64,000 bases of DNA from Bryobacterales bacterium (GTDB lineage: Bacteria; Acidobacteriota; Terriglobia; Bryobacterales; Bryobacteraceae), in NCBI GenBank assembly GCA_003164035.1, contig PLRS01000017.1:1-64000 (forward strand), in the 5' to 3' direction. The position numbers were made by a program, and so were the translations under genes. A model generated the notes under the pieces. The model was not told the DNA's origin and searched no databases. It was given only the letters and a program-made list of their open reading frames with translations. This document shows, piece by piece, positions 10,436 through 24,461 of this stretch; positions within the stretch are counted from its first letter, which is position 1; each line of letters opens with the position of its first letter.

Positions 10436-10549
10436 GGAAGCGGGTTCCCCTGGAACGGTTTGGCGCCCGGCTGTCCCCCCACCGGCTTGCCCCTCCCCAT
10501 GAATCCCGCTATTCTACTGCGGGGCGGCGGTGCCGCCTGGGAGGAGCAG

Positions 10550-12088
10550 ATGACATCAAGCGCCAACCGCCGCGAGTTTCTGGGGAGCGCAGCCGCCGCG
10601 GCGGCGTTTTCCATCGTTCCCAGACACGTGTTGGGGGGACCGGGCGTGGTCGCCCCCAGCGACAAGATTAACCTGGCCTGCGTCGGCACCGGCACCGAGG
10701 GGCTGCGCGAAATGCCCGTTCTGCTGGCTTCCGAGGACATTCGGATTACCGCCGTGTGCGATCCGAACAGGGACGCGGGCGGGTACCGCGACTGGAGCCG
10801 GGATGGCCTGCTGCGCGACCTGCGCCGCGCTGTGGGCGATCCCAATTGGCGGGCCGGGACGGAGGGCACGATTCCAGGCGGGCGCGAGGTGGGCCGCGCC
10901 TTTGTCGAAGCCTACTACGCCGGCCAGAGCCGATCGGGCCAGTACAAGGGCTGCGCCGCTTACACCGACGCGCGCGAGATGCTGGAACAGGAAAAGGGCA
11001 TCGACGCGGTCAAGATCATGACCCCCGACCACCTCCACGGAGTGCTGGCCATCGCGGCCATGAAGCGCGGCAAGCACGTCATCACACACAAGCCCATCTC
11101 CAACCGCCTGAAGGAGGCGCAACTCGTGGTCGAGACGGCGCGCAAGACCGGGGTTTCCACCCACTTCATGCCGTGGGACAGCAACGGGGACATGGCTCCG
11201 GTGATGGCGTGGATCAATAGCGGCGCCATCGGAACGCTGAGGGAGGTTCACAACTGGTCGAACCGCCCGGTCTGGCCGCAGTACGCCACCATCCCCACCG
11301 ACCGGCCGCCGGTGCCGGCGGGATTCGACTGGGACCTGTGGCTCGGCCCCGAAGCCGAGCGTCCCTACCACCCCGATTACACTCACATGGTGTTCCGCGG
11401 CTGGTACGACTTTGGCGGCGGCTCGATGGCCGATATGGGGCACTATAGCCTGTGGACCGTGTTCAACGCGCTGGAGCTTTCCGGACCGACCAGCATCGAC
11501 CCGATGTCGACCCACGCCTGCATGCTGAAGGATGGCGTCTCCACCACCATTCGCAACGATTTCTCCTTCCCGCTCGCCGGCGTGGTGCGGTTCAAATACC
11601 CGGCCAGCGGACGGCGCGGGCCCATCGACCTGGTCTGGTACGACGGCGGCATTCATCCGCCCACGCCCGCGGAGCTGGACCTGGAGGGCCAGGAACTGGC
11701 GCGCGAAGGCATGATGTTCGTGGGCGACAAGGGTAAGATCCTGGCCGGGTTCAACGTGGAAACCCCGCGGCTGATTTCCGCGCACCGCAAGAAAAGCATC
11801 CAGCCGCCGCAGCCCGCGCCCAAGCCAAACGGCGGGCCCCAAACGCCTCAGCTATCGCCCGGACTGAAACAGTGGGTCGCGGCGTGCCGCGGCGACAAGC
11901 GCCACTCGCCCGGCAGCTTCCTCAACGCGGGCCCGATTTCCGAGGCGGTCAACCTTTACGCGGTGGCGTTGCGCACCGGTAAACGGCTGCGCTATGACGC
12001 CGACAAAGGCGCCGTCACCAACGTCGCCGGGGCCAATAAGTATCTGTCACGCGAGTACCGCGCGGGGTGGGACCCGCAAACCATCTGA
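10550..12088 (+). CDS. Tat-exported Gfo/Idh/MocA family oxidoreductase
   Basis: 512-residue NAD(P)-dependent sugar oxidoreductase-like protein. A twin-arginine signal (NRREFLGSAAAAAAF) lies at residues 6-20. A Rossmann fold follows (KINLACVGTGTEG, ITAVCDPN), then the substrate-domain Lys segment HVITHKPIS, with His where most family members have Glu (EKP). The C-terminal half is the alpha/beta substrate domain typical of the long Planctomycetes/Acidobacteria members. A gggaggag Shine-Dalgarno supports the ATG at 10550 over a frame 30 codons longer. It is followed after 23 bp by a TIM-barrel isomerase, so a secreted or periplasmic sugar-conversion pair is likely; the substrate is unknown. Confidence 0.85.
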   Translation: MTSSANRREFLGSAAAAAAFSIVPRHVLGGPGVVAPSDKINLACVGTGTEGLREMPVLLASEDIRITAVCDPNRDAGGYRDWSRDGLLRDLRRAVGDPNWRAGTEGTIPGGREVGRAFVEAYYAGQSRSGQYKGCAAYTDAREMLEQEKGIDAVKIMTPDHLHGVLAIAAMKRGKHVITHKPISNRLKEAQLVVETARKTGVSTHFMPWDSNGDMAPVMAWINSGAIGTLREVHNWSNRPVWPQYATIPTDRPPVPAGFDWDLWLGPEAERPYHPDYTHMVFRGWYDFGGGSMADMGHYSLWTVFNALELSGPTSIDPMSTHACMLKDGVSTTIRNDFSFPLAGVVRFKYPASGRRGPIDLVWYDGGIHPPTPAELDLEGQELAREGMMFVGDKGKILAGFNVETPRLISAHRKKSIQPPQPAPKPNGGPQTPQLSPGLKQWVAACRGDKRHSPGSFLNAGPISEAVNLYAVALRTGKRLRYDADKGAVTNVAGANKYLSREYRAGWDPQTI

Positions 12089-12111
12089 ACGGTCGATAGG
12101 AGAAAGCGTCA

Positions 12112-12945
12112 ATGCATCTTTCGAGAAGAGAGTTCCTCGCCGCCAGCGCCGCCGGCGCGGTGGCAGCCGGCCCGCTCATGGCCGACCCGCTGGGCATGCC
12201 CATCGGAACCCAGACCTGGCCCATCCGCGCCGCCATCGGCAAGGACTTCCACGGCACGCTGAAACAGATCGCCGGCATGGGCTACCGCACCATCGAAATG
12301 TGCTCCCCGCCGAGCTACAAAGAAGGCTTCGGAGCGCTGGCCGGCATGTCCGCGGTGGAAATGAAGAAGACCATCCAGGCGGCCGGGCTGCGCTGCGAGA
12401 GTTGCCACTATCAGTTCAAGGAGATGAAGGAGGCACTGGACGAGCGCATCGCCTTCGCCAAGGAACTCGGCCTGAAGCAAATGATCTGCTCGACTTTCGG
12501 CGTGCCCGGCACCGCCAAAACGGCGGATTGGGCGAAAGCCGCCAGCGAACTGAACAGAATCGGAGAGAAGACCGCCGCCTCGGGCATCCAGACGGGCTTC
12601 CACAACCACGACTTCGAGTTTCAGAAGATCGGGAACGAGTTGATCTACGACAGGCTGATGGCCGAGTTCGACGCGAAGCTGGTCAAGATGCAATTCCAGG
12701 TGGCCGTGATCAGGCTCGGCTATCAAGCCGCGACCTACCTAACGAAATACCCCGGCCGCTTCCTCTCGATGCACCTGTCGGACTGGTCGACGGCGACCAA
12801 CAAGCAGGTTGCGGTTGGCTCCGGATCGGTGGACTGGAAGGGGCTGTTCGCGGCCGCGCGCACTGGAGGCATCAAGAACTACTTCGTCGAAATGGACCTG
12901 GAGTTCATGAAGCCCAGCTACGACTTTCTGCACGGGCTGAAGTAA
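12112..12945 (+). CDS. Sugar phosphate isomerase/epimerase (xylose-isomerase-like TIM barrel), signal-bearing
   Basis: 277-residue AP-endonuclease-2/xylose-isomerase-like barrel. The N-terminus HLSRREFLAASAAGAVAAG resembles a Tat signal. Metal-site segments are visible: GFHNHDFEF (about 163-171), the acidic region of the next strand, FLSMHLSDW and YFVEMDL near the C-terminus. An aggagaaagcgtca site precedes the ATG. It is co-transcribed with the Gfo/Idh oxidoreductase 23 bp upstream, a pairing common in these bacteria for oxidising and isomerising unusual sugars or inositols. The exact reaction cannot be read from sequence. Confidence 0.82.
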   Translation: MHLSRREFLAASAAGAVAAGPLMADPLGMPIGTQTWPIRAAIGKDFHGTLKQIAGMGYRTIEMCSPPSYKEGFGALAGMSAVEMKKTIQAAGLRCESCHYQFKEMKEALDERIAFAKELGLKQMICSTFGVPGTAKTADWAKAASELNRIGEKTAASGIQTGFHNHDFEFQKIGNELIYDRLMAEFDAKLVKMQFQVAVIRLGYQAATYLTKYPGRFLSMHLSDWSTATNKQVAVGSGSVDWKGLFAAARTGGIKNYFVEMDLEFMKPSYDFLHGLK

Positions 12946-14190: not shown

Positions 14191-14264
14191 TATAGCCACA
14201 AATGAACACGGATAAATCCGGTGCTTTCTTCATCTGTGTTGATCTGTGTTCATCTGTGGCTATA
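14191..14264. repeat. Imperfect inverted repeat of the 'agccacagatgaacac' type
   Basis: Left arm 14191-14213 (tatagccacaaatgaacacg and on) and right arm 14242-14264 (atctgtgttcatctgtggct and on) are 23-nt inverted copies with two or three mismatches. The right arm overlaps the last bases of the activase gene. A single related arm (ccacggatgaacacagatc) stands at 30592-30610. Similar 'cacagatgaacacagat' repeats are scattered in other large bacterial genomes; that is recollection, not a search. Confidence 0.7.
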
Positions 14265-15054
14265 TTCTTTCCGGCTCCCTAGCCAAGCGGATATCGCCGC
14301 TCGCAACACTCACCGGTACCGCGGCGGCTAGAAATGGCTCGACATCGGCGTTGGCCGGTTGGGCCTCGTTCCAGCTCGGGAGAAATTCCATGCCGAGGCC
14401 CGCGTACTTGCCCCCGGCGGCGCGATGGTACGGCAGCAAGTCCACCCGCACCAGGCCCGCAAGCGATCCGGCAATGCCGGCGATGGCGCGAAGATTGGCG
14501 CCGGTGTCGGTCACGCCCGGTACCAGCGGCACCCGGATCACAAAGGGCACATCCATCGAGCTCAGCGCGCGCAGGTTGGCGAGGATCGGCGCGTTGTCGG
14601 CGCCGGTATAGCGGATGTGCGCCTCCCTGTCCACCAGCTTGAGGTCGAAATACACGAGCTGGGACATGCCCGCGACCCGCCGGAACCGGGACTCGGTGGC
14701 GTAGCCGGAAGTGTCCAGCACCACGTGAACATTCGACAGACGGCCGATGATGTCTTCGACGAACGGCGCTTGTAGAAGCGGCTCGCCGCCCGAGAATGTC
14801 ACTCCTCCGCCGTTCGACCGAAGAATAGCGGCCTGCCGGTTCAGGATCGCCGCGACTTGTTCCGCCGTGTAGCGCCGGCCGACGGTCCTTTCGCCCCGCG
14901 CCGTCCGCATCGTCTGCGGCTCCGGAGATAGACCCTCCGGGTTATGGCACCAGGCGCAGCGGAGCGGGCAGCCTTTCAGGAATACCGTCGTGCGCACTCC
15001 CGGGCCGTCGTGAGTGGTGAACTCTCGTATCTCGTGGATCACTCCGGAAGTCAC
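14260..15054 (-). CDS. Glycyl-radical-enzyme activating protein (radical SAM)
   Basis: 264-residue radical SAM activase that uses SAM and a [4Fe-4S] cluster to abstract a hydrogen from the glycyl residue of its partner enzyme. The cluster motif CxxxCxxC is Cys29, Cys33 and Cys36 (GCPLRCAWCHNPEG). SAM-binding segments follow (VTFSGGEPLLQ, VLDTSG). The eight-Cys ferredoxin insert seen in activases of CutC-, HpdB- or Hps-type enzymes is missing, so in architecture it matches the short PFL-activase. It starts with GTG 6 bp after the stop of its partner, so the two are clearly one operon. Confidence 0.9.
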   Translation of the reverse strand: MTSGVIHEIREFTTHDGPGVRTTVFLKGCPLRCAWCHNPEGLSPEPQTMRTARGERTVGRRYTAEQVAAILNRQAAILRSNGGGVTFSGGEPLLQAPFVEDIIGRLSNVHVVLDTSGYATESRFRRVAGMSQLVYFDLKLVDREAHIRYTGADNAPILANLRALSSMDVPFVIRVPLVPGVTDTGANLRAIAGIAGSLAGLVRVDLLPYHRAAGGKYAGLGMEFLPSWNEAQPANADVEPFLAAAVPVSVASGDIRLAREPERI

Positions 15055-15060
15055 GCGTTC

Positions 15061-17196
15061 CTATAGTCCGTATAACTGGCGCGCTACCACGTGATCCTGG
15101 TACTCGGGCGCGAGCTCGCAGAAGTAACCGCTCCAACCCCAAACGCGCACGATGAGGTTCCGGTGTAGCTCGGGATGGCGCTTGGCATCCAGCAGCGTTT
15201 CGGCGTTCAGGGCGTTGAGCTGGAGTTGCTGGCAGCCGAGTTGGGCAAACGTCCGTACCAGCAGCGCGCATTTTGCGATCGAGTCTTCGTCGCGAAACGA
15301 CAGGTCCGAAAGCTCCATCGTGATCGGCCCGCCGTTGCAGATTCGCCCATAGTCGATCCGGCTGAAGGCCTGGAGCACGCCGATCGGCCCGCGAATGGCC
15401 GCGTTCGGCGAAGGCGCCAGGTTGGCGCTGAAAAATTCTCCACGCTTACGGCCCTCGGCGGTCGCGCCGATCGGCGGGGCGGCATCGCCCGGCTCTCCAC
15501 GGGCAAGCCAGATGTAATACATGGCGGAGCCTGTGCCCGGCCGCATCTTCCCGCCTCGGCCGTTGTCTTCGATGGCTTCGCACGCTTCGGCGACGAACTC
15601 GAAAAGCCGGACCATCAACTGGTCGGCCTCTTCGTCGTTGCCGACCTTCGGTGCGTCCTCGGTGAGTCTCCGGCGCAGTGACTCATGGTTCTCGAAGTTT
15701 CCATCGAGCGCCTCCAGCAGTTCGTCCGCCGTTACCGAGCGCTCGTCGAATACGAAGCGTTTCACCGCCGCCAGCGCATCGGCGGCGTTGGCGGAGGCGG
15801 CCGCGTGCAGACCGAAGTTGTTGTACTTCAGCCCGCGGGAAAGGTCGCGGCCGTTTTCGAGGCAACCCTCCATCAGCACGGAGTAATACGGAGCCGGGGG
15901 CAGGAGCAAGCGCCGGTATTTATCGGCCAGCTCGAAGACTCGTTCGCGAATGTTATCGGCGGCACGGCCGAGTATCGCCTCGAACCCTACATCCGCCGAC
16001 AACCCCTGACGAATCGCTTTGTCGGCCGCCAGCGGGAGGGAAACCGCGCCGGTGTTGACCACCTCCATCCCCTTGCCCGGAATGATGAACTCCCAACAGG
16101 CCGCCACCGTGTAGTCGCGCGCATCCTCCAGGTCGTAGCCGTGTTTCACCAGCGCGGGGATTACCACCTCGTCGTTGGAGTATTGCGGAAATCCCAGCCC
16201 GTTGCGAGTCAACTCGCCCGCCAGACCCAGCAGCGACAAATCCGTGTCCGCGGAGATTCGCAAATTGATCTTGGGGTCGATCATGTTGGTGTAAAGGGCC
16301 ACGCGGATGGCCATGGCCGTCAACTCGTTTACCGCGGGACTTCCGTCGTGCCGGACGCCGCCGAGCATGATCGTCTGGCCGTTGTCGCCCTGCTGAACGC
16401 CGGGATAGAGATCGCTATCTTTGTTCAGGGAGATGAAGAACTCCGCCAGCAGTTCTTCGGCGCCGGCCAAAGTAATCCGGCCCGATTCCAGGTCGCCCTC
16501 GAGATACGGCCACATATATTGGTCGAAGCGGCCAAGGCCGACGTGGTAGTGCCCTTCGAGCCAAACCATCGCGTGCAGGATACGCAACGCCTGAAGCGCC
16601 TCGTGGAACGTCTCTGGCGGGCGGCCCGGCACTTTTTCGAGTATGGCGGCCAGGCCGGTGAGCCCCATCTTACGGGCTGTCTCGGCGTATCTGTCAACCA
16701 GCGCCAGCACCGCGTCGATGGTCTCGATCGCGCAGGCCAGGAATTCCAGCGCGCGCTCGTCGTGGCCCGGGCGGGAGGCCGTCTCCATGGCGACGCGCCT
16801 CCGTTCCAGCAGGCCCTGGCCGAGGACAAATCCCCAATCGGCGCAAATGTTGCTGATTGGCCCGAGTTCGTGAAGCGTGCTGCCGCCGGTGAGGGTCTTC
16901 CACTCGCCGTCGCGGTAGAGGGGCGGGATTCCAGGCGTGGTGCGGGTGAAGAGGATTCTCTCGCCGGGCAGGACGACCGGGGTCTCGGCTTCGCAAACAC
17001 GCCGGAACGCGCGGGCGACACGCCGGGGCCATCCCAGCCCCTCGGCCTCACATTCCGGCAGCACGTCGGGCGACTCAGCCGAGCGGTAAATCCTGTGAGC
17101 CCCATCCCGGATGCGGTTCCTCATGGAATCGAGCCGGGCGGTGGAAAACGAGCAGGTGCGGGTGAGAAAGCCGGGAGCGAGTTCGGTCGCAAGCAT
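15061..17196 (-). CDS. Glycyl radical enzyme of unassigned class
   Basis: 711-residue pyruvate-formate-lyase-family protein. The glycyl radical loop RVWGWSGYF is at the C-terminus, with the radical Gly at about 687. The thiyl-radical site is Cys367 in AACWEF with Glu two residues later (Cys367-Trp-Glu369). PFL itself has Cys-Cys, while dehydratase/lyase members have Cys-x-Glu, so this is probably not a PFL. It is shorter than PFL (about 760) and much shorter than CutC (about 850). The ATG at 17196 has a ggtgaaggtgg site. The adjacent activase supports function. Substrate not inferable from the window; the product needs anoxic conditions to survive. Confidence 0.88.
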   Translation of the reverse strand: MLATELAPGFLTRTCSFSTARLDSMRNRIRDGAHRIYRSAESPDVLPECEAEGLGWPRRVARAFRRVCEAETPVVLPGERILFTRTTPGIPPLYRDGEWKTLTGGSTLHELGPISNICADWGFVLGQGLLERRRVAMETASRPGHDERALEFLACAIETIDAVLALVDRYAETARKMGLTGLAAILEKVPGRPPETFHEALQALRILHAMVWLEGHYHVGLGRFDQYMWPYLEGDLESGRITLAGAEELLAEFFISLNKDSDLYPGVQQGDNGQTIMLGGVRHDGSPAVNELTAMAIRVALYTNMIDPKINLRISADTDLSLLGLAGELTRNGLGFPQYSNDEVVIPALVKHGYDLEDARDYTVAACWEFIIPGKGMEVVNTGAVSLPLAADKAIRQGLSADVGFEAILGRAADNIRERVFELADKYRRLLLPPAPYYSVLMEGCLENGRDLSRGLKYNNFGLHAAASANAADALAAVKRFVFDERSVTADELLEALDGNFENHESLRRRLTEDAPKVGNDEEADQLMVRLFEFVAEACEAIEDNGRGGKMRPGTGSAMYYIWLARGEPGDAAPPIGATAEGRKRGEFFSANLAPSPNAAIRGPIGVLQAFSRIDYGRICNGGPITMELSDLSFRDEDSIAKCALLVRTFAQLGCQQLQLNALNAETLLDAKRHPELHRNLIVRVWGWSGYFCELAPEYQDHVVARQLYGL

Positions 17197-17367: not shown

Positions 17368-17895
17368 GTGAAGATGGATGACGAAAGGGCGGTTGCGCCG
17401 GAAGAGCGGAAACCATTGCGGCGGAACCTGTTGCTGGGCGCGATGTTCGGCATGGGAGCCGCGATCGGGACGGCACTCGGTTTGCCGGCTGTGATTTATC
17501 TCTTCTTTTCACCCAAGTCTCGCAAACCGTCGGAATGGACCGAAGCCGGCGGCATCGCCGCCATTCCGCCCAACGCGCCGGTCGAGATTGCGTTTCACCG
17601 CAAACGCGTGGACGGGTGGAAGGTGGTCAGTGAAAAAACAACGGCCTGGGTAGTCAAACATCCCGATAACACGGTCACGGCTTTCGGCCCGCAATGCACC
17701 CATCTGGGGTGCGCTTACCATTGGACAGAGGCGGGGAGCGGATTCCTGTGCCCGTGTCACACTTCCCTGTTTTCGATCGACGGCAAGGTCCTCAGCGGCC
17801 CCGCGCCGCGTCCTTTGGACCGTTACGACACTAAGATCGAAGCCGGGAAACTGTTCATCGGGCGGCTGCGCCCGTCGGTGGAGACACGGGCATGA
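17368..17895 (+). CDS. Rieske iron-sulfur protein of a bc-type complex
   Basis: 175-residue membrane-anchored Rieske subunit that passes electrons from quinol to cytochrome c. A single N-terminal membrane segment (about 22-48) anchors the Rieske domain. Cluster ligands are Cys110-x-His112 and Cys128-x-x-His131, with the disulfide pair Cys115 and Cys130, in CTHLGC and CPCH. A gggagg site precedes the GTG at 17368; an ATG two codons on is also possible. The stop overlaps the start of the cytochrome b gene by 4 bp (ATGA), so both subunits are made together. Confidence 0.93.
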   Translation: MKMDDERAVAPEERKPLRRNLLLGAMFGMGAAIGTALGLPAVIYLFFSPKSRKPSEWTEAGGIAAIPPNAPVEIAFHRKRVDGWKVVSEKTTAWVVKHPDNTVTAFGPQCTHLGCAYHWTEAGSGFLCPCHTSLFSIDGKVLSGPAPRPLDRYDTKIEAGKLFIGRLRPSVETRA

Positions 17896-19526
17896 AAGCC
17901 ACTCTCGAAAGAGTCGCCGCTTGGATCGACGAGCGCACCGGGCTTTATACGGCGGGCCGCGGTTTCTTTGAAGAGAAGATTCCAGCCTCCAGCGGATGGC
18001 ATCAGGTGTTCGGCAGCGTGGCTCTGTTTCTGGTTCTAACCCAGGCCTTCACCGGCATCTTACTGGCATTCAATTACGCTCCCACGCCGGGCGAAGCCTA
18101 TAACAGCCTGCGCTACATTTTGACCGAAGTCACTTGCGGACGCCTGATTCGGGGATTGCATCACTGGGGCGCCAGCATGCTGATCGTGGTGGTGGTGCTG
18201 CACATGGTGCAGGTTTTCTTATGGGGCGCTTATAAGAAGCCGCGGGAGAGCACCTGGATCGTGGGCGTGGTATTGCTGCTGCTGACGCTGACTTACGGGC
18301 TGACCGGATACCTTCTTCCTTGGGACAACCGGGCCTATTGGGGAACCGTGGTGGCGACCAACATCGCCGCGCAGCTCCCGCTGGTGGGTCCGCTGATGGC
18401 CCGGCTTCTCGGCGGAGAAGGCGCCGTTGGGGTGGTGACGTTTGCCCGCTTCTACGGGCTGCACGTGCTGTTGCTGCCGCCGGCCACCATGCTCCTGATC
18501 GGGCTGCACGTATTCCTGGTGCGCAAGCACGGCGTGGCGCCCGGGCCGGGGGATGAAGGTCTGTCGAAAAAGCCGTTCTTTCCCGGGCAGGTTTTCAAGG
18601 ATACGGTGGCGATCTTCTTCGCGTTCGCGATCTTGTTCCTGCTGGCGGTGGCGGTGCGGGTGCCGCTCGAACAGCTCGCCGATCCGGGAGACACATCCTA
18701 TATTCCGCGGCCAGAGTGGTATTTCCTGTTCCTGTTTCAGACACTGAAGCTATTCAATGGACCGCTGGAACTGGTGGGCAGCGCGGTGCTGCCGGGCCTG
18801 GCGGTAATGGCGCTGATTCTGGTTCCGTTCATCGATCGCGGCAAGCTGGTGAAAGTGACCCGCCGCACGGTGGCGATTGCGGTTGTGGCGCTGGCCGCCA
18901 TCGGCTGGACCGGGCTGACGGCGGCCGCCGTGAAGAGCACTCCCAGCGAAGCGCTCGCGGCACAAGTGGATTATTCGGGGCCCACGGCCTGGATTCAGCT
19001 TTCGCCCGAGGAACTGGCTGGGGTGGCATACTTTCGACAGGAAAACTGCGTGAGCTGTCACGCCTTCGGCCGCGCCTCGGACGGTCCGGACCTGAGCCGA
19101 GGCTTGATTCACCGCGACGCGGCCTGGATGATCCGGCACTTCAAGGATCCGGCCGGGATGCGGCCCGGAAGCTCGATGCCGGCGGCCGGGCTTAGCGACG
19201 CGCAACTGAACTCGCTGGCGGCGTTTCTACTCAGGCTGAATCCGGACAATGCCACCGTTCTAGCCGATGCGCCGGAGTTTGCCACCCAGGGCGCGCTGGT
19301 TTACCAGTCTCATCAATGCAGCGCCTGCCACCGCGTGAACGGAGTGGGCATGACGATCGGCCCGGCGCTGAACGGCTTGGCCAGGCGGCAGACGCGCAGT
19401 TGGGTCGCCGACCACTTCGCCAATCCGCAAAAGCTATCTCCCGGAACGTCGATGCCGCCTTATAAGTTCTCGCCCAAGGAGCTCGATAACCTCATGTCTT
19501 ATTTGTTCTCGCTGCCGGAGTCATGA
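17892..19526 (+). CDS. Cytochrome b fused to a diheme cytochrome c
   Basis: 544-residue fusion. Residues 1 to about 350 are a full-length cytochrome b with bis-His segments (GLHHWGASM and VLHMVQVF around 88-106; FYGLHVLLL and IGLHVFLVRKH around 187-217), the quinol-site PEWY motif at 274-277 and further membrane helices. The C-terminal part carries two c-type heme motifs: CVSCH (386-390) and CSACH (476-480), each with a later Met-containing loop (SSMPAAG, TSMPPYK). It therefore combines cytochrome b and the electron-exit cytochrome in one chain, with the Rieske protein encoded immediately before. It overlaps the next gene by 4 bp. Confidence 0.92.
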   Translation: MKATLERVAAWIDERTGLYTAGRGFFEEKIPASSGWHQVFGSVALFLVLTQAFTGILLAFNYAPTPGEAYNSLRYILTEVTCGRLIRGLHHWGASMLIVVVVLHMVQVFLWGAYKKPRESTWIVGVVLLLLTLTYGLTGYLLPWDNRAYWGTVVATNIAAQLPLVGPLMARLLGGEGAVGVVTFARFYGLHVLLLPPATMLLIGLHVFLVRKHGVAPGPGDEGLSKKPFFPGQVFKDTVAIFFAFAILFLLAVAVRVPLEQLADPGDTSYIPRPEWYFLFLFQTLKLFNGPLELVGSAVLPGLAVMALILVPFIDRGKLVKVTRRTVAIAVVALAAIGWTGLTAAAVKSTPSEALAAQVDYSGPTAWIQLSPEELAGVAYFRQENCVSCHAFGRASDGPDLSRGLIHRDAAWMIRHFKDPAGMRPGSSMPAAGLSDAQLNSLAAFLLRLNPDNATVLADAPEFATQGALVYQSHQCSACHRVNGVGMTIGPALNGLARRQTRSWVADHFANPQKLSPGTSMPPYKFSPKELDNLMSYLFSLPES

Positions 19527-22301: not shown

Positions 22302-24281
22302 CTATTGGGGTTCCCTAATGCCCGGCTGATCCGGCCCCAGGACCGGAAAGGACGTGATGCGCAGACGCGCGGCGGCGTAAGGGATGAGGGTTACCGGCGC
22401 ATCTTCGAGGCGGCTGGTTACCGGACCTTGGGGCGGAGGAGCGGCGCTATCGTCGACGATGACCCACTGCGGCAACCTGCGCGCTTTCGCCTCCAGTGCG
22501 ACCGGCGGCGAACTGTTGTTAAATGGCTGCCGGGCGATGGGCGCCTCTCGCACTTGAATGGACGTGGAAGGGTTCTTCAGATCGACTCTGAGGCCATAAT
22601 TCCAGGGGGACGTTGGGTAGACTTCCCAATCGGCTACCGGACCGGTCTGCTTGAGTTTGCTCCACGCTTCTCCGATGCGAAGAGAGTAGACCAGCGGCCC
22701 GCGCTCCACCGAAACCGAGCCATTGAACCCTTCTATCGCCCGGACGGGCATGGGCAGGGTGATCTCCACCCGGTCGCCCTTGCGCCATTCGCGTTCGATG
22801 CGGTGATAGGTGCCCGGCCGCAGTCCCTCCGCGTTTTGCCCGCCGGCCACAACCACGGGGTCGCGAGTCCACTCGGGTATGCGCAGATGCAGCGGAAACC
22901 GGAGCGGCGAGGCGGGGGAAACGGTCAGGCCGATCTTGTCGCGAAAGGGATACCCGGTGTCCTCTTCCACCAAAACGTCCACGCCCTTGATCTTCGTGCG
23001 TACCTCACAGGGGGCGTAAGCGGCGACGGCCAAACCATCGTCGGCGGAAGCCATCCATAGAGACGCCGTGAATTTCGGCCAGCCTTGATGAAGGTTGGCG
23101 GTGCAGCAACCGAAGTTCGGCTCGAGGCCGAACAGGTTCGATTCGGGGCCGTTGGTAGTCCAGTCGCGGCGGCCGAGTGATACCAAGGCCTGATTCGGCT
23201 GCTGGTCGTACTGGTGACTCCATTGATCCGCGGTCTGACCGCCGGGCAGGGGATTGAAGGCGATCTTCTCCAGCCGGTCTCCCAGGCGTGGGTCGCCGAG
23301 CACGGCCAGGTCCAATTCCAGAGAGAACATCGCTTCCACCACCGCGCACAGCTCGATTCCTTGCGATGGGTTGCGGCCGGCGAAGTGTTCGTCGGCGCTG
23401 AAGATCCCATTGGGGAGGCTCTCAAACTTATCGAGCATAGCGAGCATCAGTTCGGTGCCCGATCGATCGGCGGGGTCGTGAGAGACCAGGTACCACAGCG
23501 CGGCGGTTTTCAAGGCCATGGCATGGTTGACGCCATGGCTTTCGTGTTTATCCTGCCCGGGTGCGATGCGGCCGGTGAATGGGAAATGTTCGTAGAACTT
23601 TCGCCAGTCGAAACCTTGCGCTTTCAGTTGATGGGCCAGATCGAGCAGCTTGGCGTCGCCGGTCCGGTTGTAGAGCCAGAGCAGGCTGGCCAGTTCGTCC
23701 TGCCAGCGATAGATAGCCCAGCTCTTCAGCGGTTCGGTGGGCAGCATTCGCGACTGATAGGCGAAATACTTCTCCATCACCGGGATCACCCGCGCGTCGC
23801 CGGTCGCCTCCTGGAACTGAGTGAGCACCTTCAGCATGATCATGATGGGCCACCAGTCCTTGTTTTTTTCGGGACCGATGGAGCCGTCGGGCCGCTGCCG
23901 GTCGAGCGTCCAGTCGACCCACGGTTTCACTTTGGCGATCAGTTTCGGATCGTCCAGGAGGTAGGCGAGCGGCAGCAGACCATCGAGATAATAGGGCCCG
24001 CGTTCCCATCCCTCGCCGGAGCCGCCGAGCCAGGCGGAGTTGGAGCCGACGTCGGGCCAGAACTCGCCCAGGTGACCGGTGATGCCCTCGGCCTGGATGC
24101 GGAGTTGGTCCTTCAACCAGCCGGCCGGCTTCACCGAGGTCAGCGGCAGCCGGTAGAATGCGCTGGCCGCGAGCGGAGGCCGGTTCTTCACCAGGTCTTC
24201 AAGCTGCGGCGCGGCTGCCAGGGCGCCAATCGTGGCAGCCGTACATCCCAGAAAAGTCCTGCGGGTAAGATCGTTGTCCAT
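22302..24281 (-). CDS. GH127/DUF1680-type beta-L-arabinofuranosidase-like protein
   Basis: 659-residue protein with a Tat-type signal (RRTFLGCTAATIGALAAA). The (alpha/alpha)6 barrel shows the DUF1680 features: the GRGEGW-like GGSGEGWERGPYYLDGLLPLAY, and EPNFGCCTANLHQGWPKF, which contains the Cys-Cys of the zinc/thiolate active site, then C-terminal beta-sandwich domains (FPLHLRIPEW). Characterised relatives release beta-L-arabinofuranose from plant hydroxyproline-rich glycans; the sugar here is not certain. The ATG at 24281 is chosen because it places the Tat motif near the N-terminus; an aggag lies 11 bp upstream. Confidence 0.85.
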   Translation of the reverse strand: MDNDLTRRTFLGCTAATIGALAAAPQLEDLVKNRPPLAASAFYRLPLTSVKPAGWLKDQLRIQAEGITGHLGEFWPDVGSNSAWLGGSGEGWERGPYYLDGLLPLAYLLDDPKLIAKVKPWVDWTLDRQRPDGSIGPEKNKDWWPIMIMLKVLTQFQEATGDARVIPVMEKYFAYQSRMLPTEPLKSWAIYRWQDELASLLWLYNRTGDAKLLDLAHQLKAQGFDWRKFYEHFPFTGRIAPGQDKHESHGVNHAMALKTAALWYLVSHDPADRSGTELMLAMLDKFESLPNGIFSADEHFAGRNPSQGIELCAVVEAMFSLELDLAVLGDPRLGDRLEKIAFNPLPGGQTADQWSHQYDQQPNQALVSLGRRDWTTNGPESNLFGLEPNFGCCTANLHQGWPKFTASLWMASADDGLAVAAYAPCEVRTKIKGVDVLVEEDTGYPFRDKIGLTVSPASPLRFPLHLRIPEWTRDPVVVAGGQNAEGLRPGTYHRIEREWRKGDRVEITLPMPVRAIEGFNGSVSVERGPLVYSLRIGEAWSKLKQTGPVADWEVYPTSPWNYGLRVDLKNPSTSIQVREAPIARQPFNNSSPPVALEAKARRLPQWVIVDDSAAPPPQGPVTSRLEDAPVTLIPYAAARLRITSFPVLGPDQPGIREPQ

Positions 24282-24461
24282 GCCGAGGGCTACTCCTTCC
24301 TCTTGGTTGTAGCGCGATTCGGGCGGCGATGGAGAGGATGGCCGCGGGGGCATGCGGACCTGGCAGGCGGAACCGCCCAACCCGAACCACTTTCACCCCT
24401 CGGGCACGCGCGACGCGGGCTGTCGAGCCTGCGGAGCCGGGAGTCGTCTCGGCTCTTCCCG

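Follow-up and report, generated by a model that had tools for sequence, protein, structure and literature searches.

Assigned families of glycyl radical enzymes (GREs) have repeatedly yielded new anaerobic chemistry, and one of their relatives, the class III ribonucleotide reductase (RNR), acts on a furanose. Several described systems bear on the GRE and radical S-adenosylmethionine (SAM) activase considered here, which are encoded in a 64,000-nucleotide stretch of a Bryobacterales bacterium (assembly GCA_003164035.1, contig PLRS01000017.1, positions 1 to 64,000; the window). PflD and YbiW of E. coli are 1,5-anhydrohexitol-6-phosphate lyases, and phosphorylated anhydrohexitols are the precedent we found for sugars among known GRE substrates (PMC12441222). 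Among the activases of microcompartments only those of GRM5, which has a 1,2-propanediol dehydratase, are without a ferredoxin insert (PMC6325248). In trans-4-hydroxyproline dehydratase (HypD) the residues H160, D278, S334, D339, F340 and E436 are required for activity, while Y450 and T645 are required for full activity (PMC7077986). We argue that the window GRE represents a new family of this superfamily with a new set of active-site residues, which is well supported, and that it probably has a new substrate.

The GRE is a protein of 711 residues encoded at 15061-17196 on the minus strand. It has PFL-like (3.8e-91) and Gly_radical (1.1e-14) domains in Pfam. The thiyl cysteine and catalytic glutamate are found in the loop Cys367-Trp368-Glu369 (16090-16098, minus strand), and we call the family CWE after it, which is our own label. 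The glycyl radical loop is R684-VWGWSGY-F692 (15121-15147, minus strand), with the radical predicted on Gly687. The activase gene follows on the same strand at 14260-15054 after a gap of 6 bases and encodes 264 residues. It matches Radical_SAM in Pfam (2.3e-17) and passes the cut-off of the NCBIfam model PFLE_PFLC for glycyl-radical enzyme activating proteins (218.6 against 174.35 bits). Its 3 cysteines (C29, C33 and C36) all lie in the CxxxCxxC motif of the radical-SAM triad (14947-14970, minus strand), and 45 residues separate this motif from the GGG motif. The two domains, the glycine loop, the active-site cysteine and the cognate activase place the GRE in the superfamily. The initial annotation had described both GRE motifs and a minimal activase with no eight-cysteine insert, and both descriptions agree with the sequence.

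This is the single Gly_radical match in the host genome, which is 8.0 Mb and 99.09% complete, and NrdD (class III RNR) has no match there at E 0.001. The initial annotation counted the genome among types usually regarded as aerobic; the lack of an NrdD match and, by reading, the Rieske-type and cytochrome b genes near the pair fit this view. A lone GRE in a genome where no class III RNR is detected makes one ask about radical chemistry under micro-oxic conditions. The GC content between 8 and 26 kb of the window is even (0.615-0.665 in 1.5-kb steps).

Position among glycyl radical enzymes

Relatives were taken from a scan of one genome per species across 84,980 species. This gave 550 stretches, and the best 80 were kept as loci (L numbers below). 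The alignment (A3) holds the window GRE and 74 of these relatives, or 75 sequences. L026, L028, L040, L043, L048 and L052 were excluded from it and from the tree because a contig end cuts them short or, in L028, because of an internal deletion of 42 residues, and all six are still counted in the neighbourhood figures. Mean column identity across the 75 sequences is 57%. They form one clade against 24 other GREs (SH-aLRT 100, stem 1.76), namely E. coli PflB, PflD and YbiW, the HypD, CutC and IAD proteins named by NCBIfam, and further GREs. The tree is a quick build with some long outgroup branches, on which the family label requires just one change. The window GRE clusters with two acidobacterial copies (SH-aLRT 93-94). 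None of 60 genomes related to that of the host has a close copy, and 4 of the 60 have more distant GRE matches (29-41% identity).

The family is widespread. Going by record titles, the 74 relatives come from 12 phyla: Acidobacteriota, Chloroflexota, Lentisphaerota, Planctomycetota, Kiritimatiellota, Verrucomicrobiota, Armatimonadota, Spirochaetota, Synergistota, Pseudomonadota, Bacillota and Bacteroidota. Most of them are metagenome bins, so individual labels may be wrong; one carrier available in culture is Oligosphaera ethanolica (L081). This spread makes the family worth attention, as do its invariant active-site changes and a substrate class that can be tested. Our literature search surfaced no paper on it; most subscription journals lie outside the coverage of that search.

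The window GRE touches 12 NCBIfam models at E 0.01, and every score is below the cut-off. It reaches 292.4 of 678.2 bits for TIGR01774 (PFL2-3 subfamily) and 40.6 of 994 for TIGR01255 (pyruvate formate-lyase). The top equivalog score is the 262 bits it obtains against PRK09983, which has a cut-off of 1109, and the tree places it outside the PflD and YbiW clades. The best score against the HypD, CutC, HpsG/HpfG, HPAD and IAD equivalogs (cut-offs 1000-1150 bits) is 239 bits, and HypD, CutC and IAD, the ones sampled in the tree, are separate from the family clade. The GRE had been called unassigned from the start, and by these cut-offs and the tree it does lie outside every characterised family tested. 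A chain of similar length, the 687-residue "Formate acetyltransferase" PDB 38la_A, is a weak partial match only (7.8e-5).

The predicted fold agrees with an eliminase. An AlphaFold2 model of the GRE (pLDDT 91.1, pTM 0.91) has PflD as its nearest PDB chain (Z 40.1, rmsd 2.3, 670 aligned). Tied within 1 Z of it are glycerol dehydratase (Z 39.6) and PflD with 1,5-anhydromannitol-6-phosphate (Z 39.5). Propanediol dehydratase and CutC (both Z 38.9) and HypD (Z 37.4) are lower, and pyruvate formate-lyase (Z 29.5) and class III RNR (Z 19-21) are far. Since members of the eliminase branch give the top scores and pyruvate formate-lyase a lower one, the GRE falls in that branch by its modelled fold, with no near member. 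Its sequence likewise assigns it to this branch.

Each described system differs from the window GRE in its own way. PflD and YbiW share the eliminase fold, C-x-E and a sugar-derived substrate of the kind we propose, but they are 29% and 26% identical to it in structural alignment and longer (765 and 810 residues). Relative to them it has N116 for His, A366 for Gly, E628 for Lys, K309 and D307, and W686 and W688. The B12-independent glycerol and 1,2-propanediol dehydratases share the fold and C-x-E, whereas the window GRE has Asn116 and does not reach the TIGR01774 cut-off. HypD has the fold, the cysteine and the glutamate in common with it; H160, D339, F340 and Y450 of HypD align with N116, N272, G273 and A384 (the HypD numbering carries an offset of 5 that is our own). 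Pyruvate formate-lyase and PflA resemble the window pair in fold and activase architecture, and the PflA structure matches the window activase at 1.2e-26. However, pyruvate formate-lyase has Cys-Cys where the window GRE has Ala-Cys-Trp-Glu, and its phmmer match is limited to the C-terminal part (576-707). Class III RNR has the glycyl/thiyl radical barrel in common but is very distant (10-14% identity).

The active site was compared with 54 sampled rows of other GREs, a few of which are near-copies. C367, W368, E369, W686, G687 and W688 are invariant in all 75 family sequences. N116 is Asn in 74/75, and in the other rows this position is His in 43 and Asn in 0. The remaining family residues also replace what is common elsewhere: D307 (Gln in 32/54, Asp in 4), K309 (Ser or Asn in 32/54), A366 (Gly in 50/54), W368 (Val in 33/54), E628 (Lys or Arg in 47/54, Glu in 1), W686 (Trp in 0/54) and W688 (Tyr or Phe in 52/54, Trp in 1). 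The full set of N116, D307, K309, A366, W368, E628, W686 and W688 occurs together in none of the 54, and judged by alignment this set is the hallmark of the family. Position 273 is Gly in 75/75 and in PflD, is Gly in 2 of the 54 other rows, and is aromatic in HypD, CutC and YbiW. Residues 216-218 of the window GRE are H-Y-H, in the loop with the second substrate-binding residue. The active site appears polar, re-tooled and specific to the family, and Gly273 together with the polar invariants would favour a sugar-sized substrate; these statements about the pocket come from the alignment and not from coordinates.

C-W-E by itself was considered as a unique mark of the family and rejected, because 2 of 56 GRE rows from outside the family have it too. 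Two Victivallales GREs outside the family (L131:7597-10047, minus strand, and L134:7218-9776, plus strand) have Gly-Cys-Trp-Glu without the rest of the set, at 30-33% identity. The Victivallales genome of L025 (G063) has 20 GRE match rows, some of them split pieces, and is rich in unassigned GREs.

The activase and its insert

An activase was found in 67 loci. It is on the same strand within 60 bp of the GRE or overlapping it in 56 of the 67, and the overlap is exactly 4 nucleotides in 25. The ferredoxin insert is present in 19 of the 67. In the near clade, which includes the window, it is absent from 39/39 loci, one of which (L046) escaped the insert pattern and was scored by length (251 residues) only. 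The 28 distant loci divide into 19 with the insert (a stretch of 75-94 residues with 7-10 cysteines) and 9 without. On a tree of 64 rows the 40 near-clade rows, with the window among them, all lack it and 19 of the 24 rows in the other clade have it, which requires at least 3 changes. Both states occur among the loci, so the trait moves within one GRE family.

The window activase is of the PFL type in that it has CxxxCxxC and no eight-cysteine insert, and it stays below the cut-off of TIGR02493, the PFL activating enzyme (163.4 against 231.75 bits). The window pair also has the insert-less activase that distinguishes GRM5. It had been argued that C-x-E combined with a minimal activase defines a class. 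We reject this argument, because GRM5 already combines both (PMC6325248) and the insert varies within the family. This removes the reasoning of the initial annotation and leaves its conclusion, that the GRE is unassigned, standing on the evidence given above. A family whose activases occur with and without the insert makes the role of the insert testable by activase swaps inside one family.

Sugar genes beside the family

What is new in this analysis is that L-arabinofuranosidase genes lie beside the GRE above genome-wide expectation, in company with sugar transporters. Neighbours were tallied by Pfam for 106 of 240 proteins within 4.5 kb of the GRE in the near clade, and for 94 proteins picked by hand within 5.5 kb in the distant loci; both tallies took the nearest proteins first under a residue limit. 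The near clade has BPD_transp_2 (10), Peripla_BP_4 (8), URO-D (7), GH127 (4), ABC (4), B12-binding (3), GH51-type (3) and LacI (3). The distant loci have Peripla_BP_4 (12), LacI (7), ABC (6), sugar MFS (4) and GH3 (2). GH51-type genes adjoin the GRE in L009, L010, L031, L041 and L044 and in the distant L074, and GH127 genes in L003, L006, L034 and L040 and again in L074.

The 49 near-clade genomes have 111 GH51-type, 160 GH127 and 109 GH3 hits genome-wide. From these the 512 kb of flanks should contain 0.26, 0.37 and 0.29 respectively, against 5, 4 and 0 loci observed. Taken together, L-arabinofuranosidase genes (GH51-type and GH127) are found at 9 of 49 near-clade loci where 0.63 are expected, with a Poisson P of 2.5e-8, or 3.6e-7 when two sister loci count once. 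These values are approximate, since the expected counts are genome-wide Pfam hits and the observed ones come from probes and Pfam, and they ignore the clustering of carbohydrate genes. The GH3 control used one probe, with contig numbers where the GRE contig is known, and was not a full locus scan.

Genes for using the sugar itself are found at some loci. L028 has in a row three URO-D genes, a corrinoid protein, the activase, the GRE, an FGGY kinase, a class II aldolase/epimerase and an L-arabinose isomerase. The isomerase matches solved AraA at 3.6e-211, and the kinase has no PDB match at 1e-20. Homologues of AraA, the kinase and the aldolase are also present in L076 and L077, and L029 and L016 have those of the kinase and aldolase. 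L071 encodes an FGGY kinase, an FBP-type (FbaA-type) aldolase and a FucI-like isomerase for which the PDB gives no match at 1e-5. An MFS sugar transporter and an aldose 1-epimerase accompany the pair in L053, L057 and L079.

The window has a GH127-type gene at 22302-24380 on the minus strand, 5.1 kb from the GRE and outside its operon. The match (63 bits) is to a broad family that includes beta-L-arabinofuranosidases. A homologue with 49% identity directly follows the GRE-activase pair in L006. With 5 GH127 hits across the 8.0 Mb of the host genome, we estimate the chance of such proximity at about 1%. AraA was not found in the host genome. It has strong hits in 13 of the 49 near-clade genomes and weak or partial ones in 4 more; many of the 49 are metagenome bins and may be incomplete. 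With no AraA found in the host and strong hits in only 13/49, many of these genomes would need another entry route. We consider the evidence for a sugar link of the family fair, and that for L-arabinose as the specific sugar moderate.

Two further candidates were set aside. A YtfQRT-like furanose transporter was rejected because the ABC proteins match AraG, XylG and RbsA better, under the cut-off. An SMP-30/gluconolactonase-like gene after the L065 GRE (56 bits) had seemed to speak for a lactone product and was downgraded; in the PDB it matches designed or generic propellers, and the probe for it hits 1 of 80 loci.

The reaction and its alternatives

In our preferred explanation, to which we give a probability of roughly 45%, the GRE and its activase work as a glycyl radical eliminase system through which L-arabinose, or a sugar directly derived from it, is used under anaerobic or micro-oxic conditions. 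This proposal is based on homology (the thiyl and glutamate machinery), on the sugar context, and on position 273 with the polar invariants. By homology the activase, with SAM and a single [4Fe-4S] cluster, would remove a hydrogen atom from Gly687, and the radical would then pass to Cys367. As in other GRE eliminases, the Cys367 thiyl would take hydrogen from the bound sugar at a carbinol carbon, with Glu369 accepting the hydroxyl proton. The resulting ketyl radical would expel a neighbouring oxygen substituent (OH, ring O or OR), and the product radical would recover hydrogen from Cys367. An eliminase of this type would be a dehydratase or a C-O lyase.

One can imagine a narrower scenario for bacteria without L-arabinose isomerase: the substrate of the GRE would be free L-arabinose, perhaps as the furanose that GH51/GH127 enzymes release, and the expulsion of a hydroxyl next to a ketyl radical would give a deoxy-sugar or deoxy-lactone. 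We regard this scenario as tentative and rather doubtful. If true, it would be a radical entry route into L-arabinose catabolism spread over 12 phyla, its chemistry would echo that of ribonucleotide reductase on a furanose, and the enzyme would to our knowledge be the first GRE acting on a free aldose. A literature search over titles and abstract openings gave no report of a GRE acting on arabinose; most subscription journals were outside its coverage.

Several observations weigh against an arabinose eliminase. No sugar gene shares the GRE operon in the window, and no single neighbour gene is universal across the loci. GH3, which the probe did not hit in the near clade, adjoins the GRE in the distant L067 and L078. 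The ABC proteins at the loci have AraG, XylG and RbsA as best matches, all below the cut-off. The full arabinose locus L028 has a GRE (L028:6066-8042) without residues 316-357; since these 42 residues are lost in frame, it may be a damaged gene, an assembly error or a variant. The control loci also give no clear contrast. They comprise 20 neighbourhoods of other GREs, of which one Victivallales genome supplies 15. The probes hit GH127 there once (weakly), URO-D twice, FGGY kinase once with a second probe, FbaA once, the ABC ATPase twice, and GH51-type and AraA/B/D not at all. An arabinofuranosidase, an AraA/FucI-like isomerase or an AraD-like aldolase is found in 16/80 loci versus 1/20 controls (Fisher P 0.18), or 20/80 versus 3/20 (P 0.55) when FGGY kinase and FbaA-type hits are added. 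The sugar ABC ATPase probe gives 20/80 versus 2/20 (P 0.23) and LacI 10/80 versus 0/20 (P 0.20). None of these is significant, so it is the genome-wide expectation that carries the arabinose enrichment. Where AraA, AraB and AraD adjoin the GRE, an arabinose-consuming GRE would compete with them, and the URO-D and corrinoid genes of the Chloroflexota loci are unaccounted for.

In a rival reading the GRE would be a C-O lyase that releases arabinose from a substituted pentose (an O-methyl sugar, glycoside or ether) instead of consuming it. The sugar would go to AraA-AraB-AraD and, in Chloroflexota, a one-carbon unit would go to corrinoid methyltransferase genes. Radical cleavage of a C-O bond in a sugar ether has its precedent in YbiW and PflD (PMC12441222). 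URO-D and B12-binding genes stand with the pair in L015, L018 and L028, and URO-D also in L027 and L029; in L028 three URO-D genes and the corrinoid protein (L028:1271-5296) are in one row with the activase, GRE, kinase, class II aldolase and AraA. One URO-D weakly resembles methylcobalamin:CoM methyltransferase (2.9e-5). However, close homologues of URO-D and, in three cases, the corrinoid protein were seen in Chloroflexota loci only (L015, L018, L027, L028 and L029), more distant URO-D hits occur elsewhere in L008, L016, L024 and L052 as well as in 2/20 controls, and it is the L028 GRE that is short by 42 residues. We think a C-O lyase of this kind unlikely.

A dehydratase for a small diol (ethylene glycol or 1,2-propanediol) acting after a kinase-aldolase route is distinctly unlikely. 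GRM5 clusters provide the model: there, too, sugar catabolism and a class II aldolase go with a GRE that has C-x-E and an activase that lacks the insert (PMC6325248). Class II aldolase homologues are found in L016, L028, L029, L076 and L077, and the FbaA-type aldolase in L071. Ethylene glycol can reportedly be obtained by fermentation of xylose and arabinose, and the same source links it with arabinose and a GRE (PMC11255663). That source, the L028 deletion and the non-significant control contrast raised our estimate for a diol and lowered our confidence in an arabinose eliminase. Other observations speak against a diol. Probes for the microcompartment genes EutM and EutN and for EutG and EutD, taken from one E. 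coli locus only, hit 0/80 loci at E 1e-5, with one weak EutE hit. Position 116, which we take to be His in known diol dehydratases, is nearly always Asn in the family, and the aromatic residue at 273 is replaced by Gly.

An enzyme that epimerises or isomerises free sugars by a radical route would suit the free-sugar context, the aldose epimerase of three loci and the failure to find AraA in the host, but the invariant Glu369 is typical of eliminases and we know of no GRE with such an activity, so we consider it very improbable. That the GRE is a HypD or CutC variant, or shares the anhydrohexitol-6-phosphate lyase activity of YbiW/PflD, is hardly credible: PflD is among the best structural matches, but the GRE is outside those clades and far below the NCBIfam cut-offs, and FsaA, whose gene is beside ybiW in E. 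coli, has no hit in the 80 loci at E 1e-5.

Some other genes recur around the pair. A conserved protein of 801-844 residues is encoded at L011:4703-7156, L035:3670-6075 (between activase and GRE) and L057:3195-5729. The L011 protein c22 has no Pfam or PDB match, and the L015 protein c43 no match. In two Clostridiales bins an aldehyde dehydrogenase precedes the pair (L070:5739-7103 and L073:5569-6933) and a methyltransferase gene follows it (L070:13433-14218 and L073:10267-11034). In the window, genes that read as Rieske-type and cytochrome b/c-type are directly upstream of the GRE on the opposite strand (17368-19526, plus strand), which puts respiratory genes beside the gene of an oxygen-sensitive enzyme. 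Genes that read as a Gfo/Idh-like oxidoreductase and a TIM-barrel isomerase are 1.3-3.8 kb from the pair (10460-12945, plus strand), and Gfo/Idh-type genes are also found near the GRE in L004, L005 and L014.

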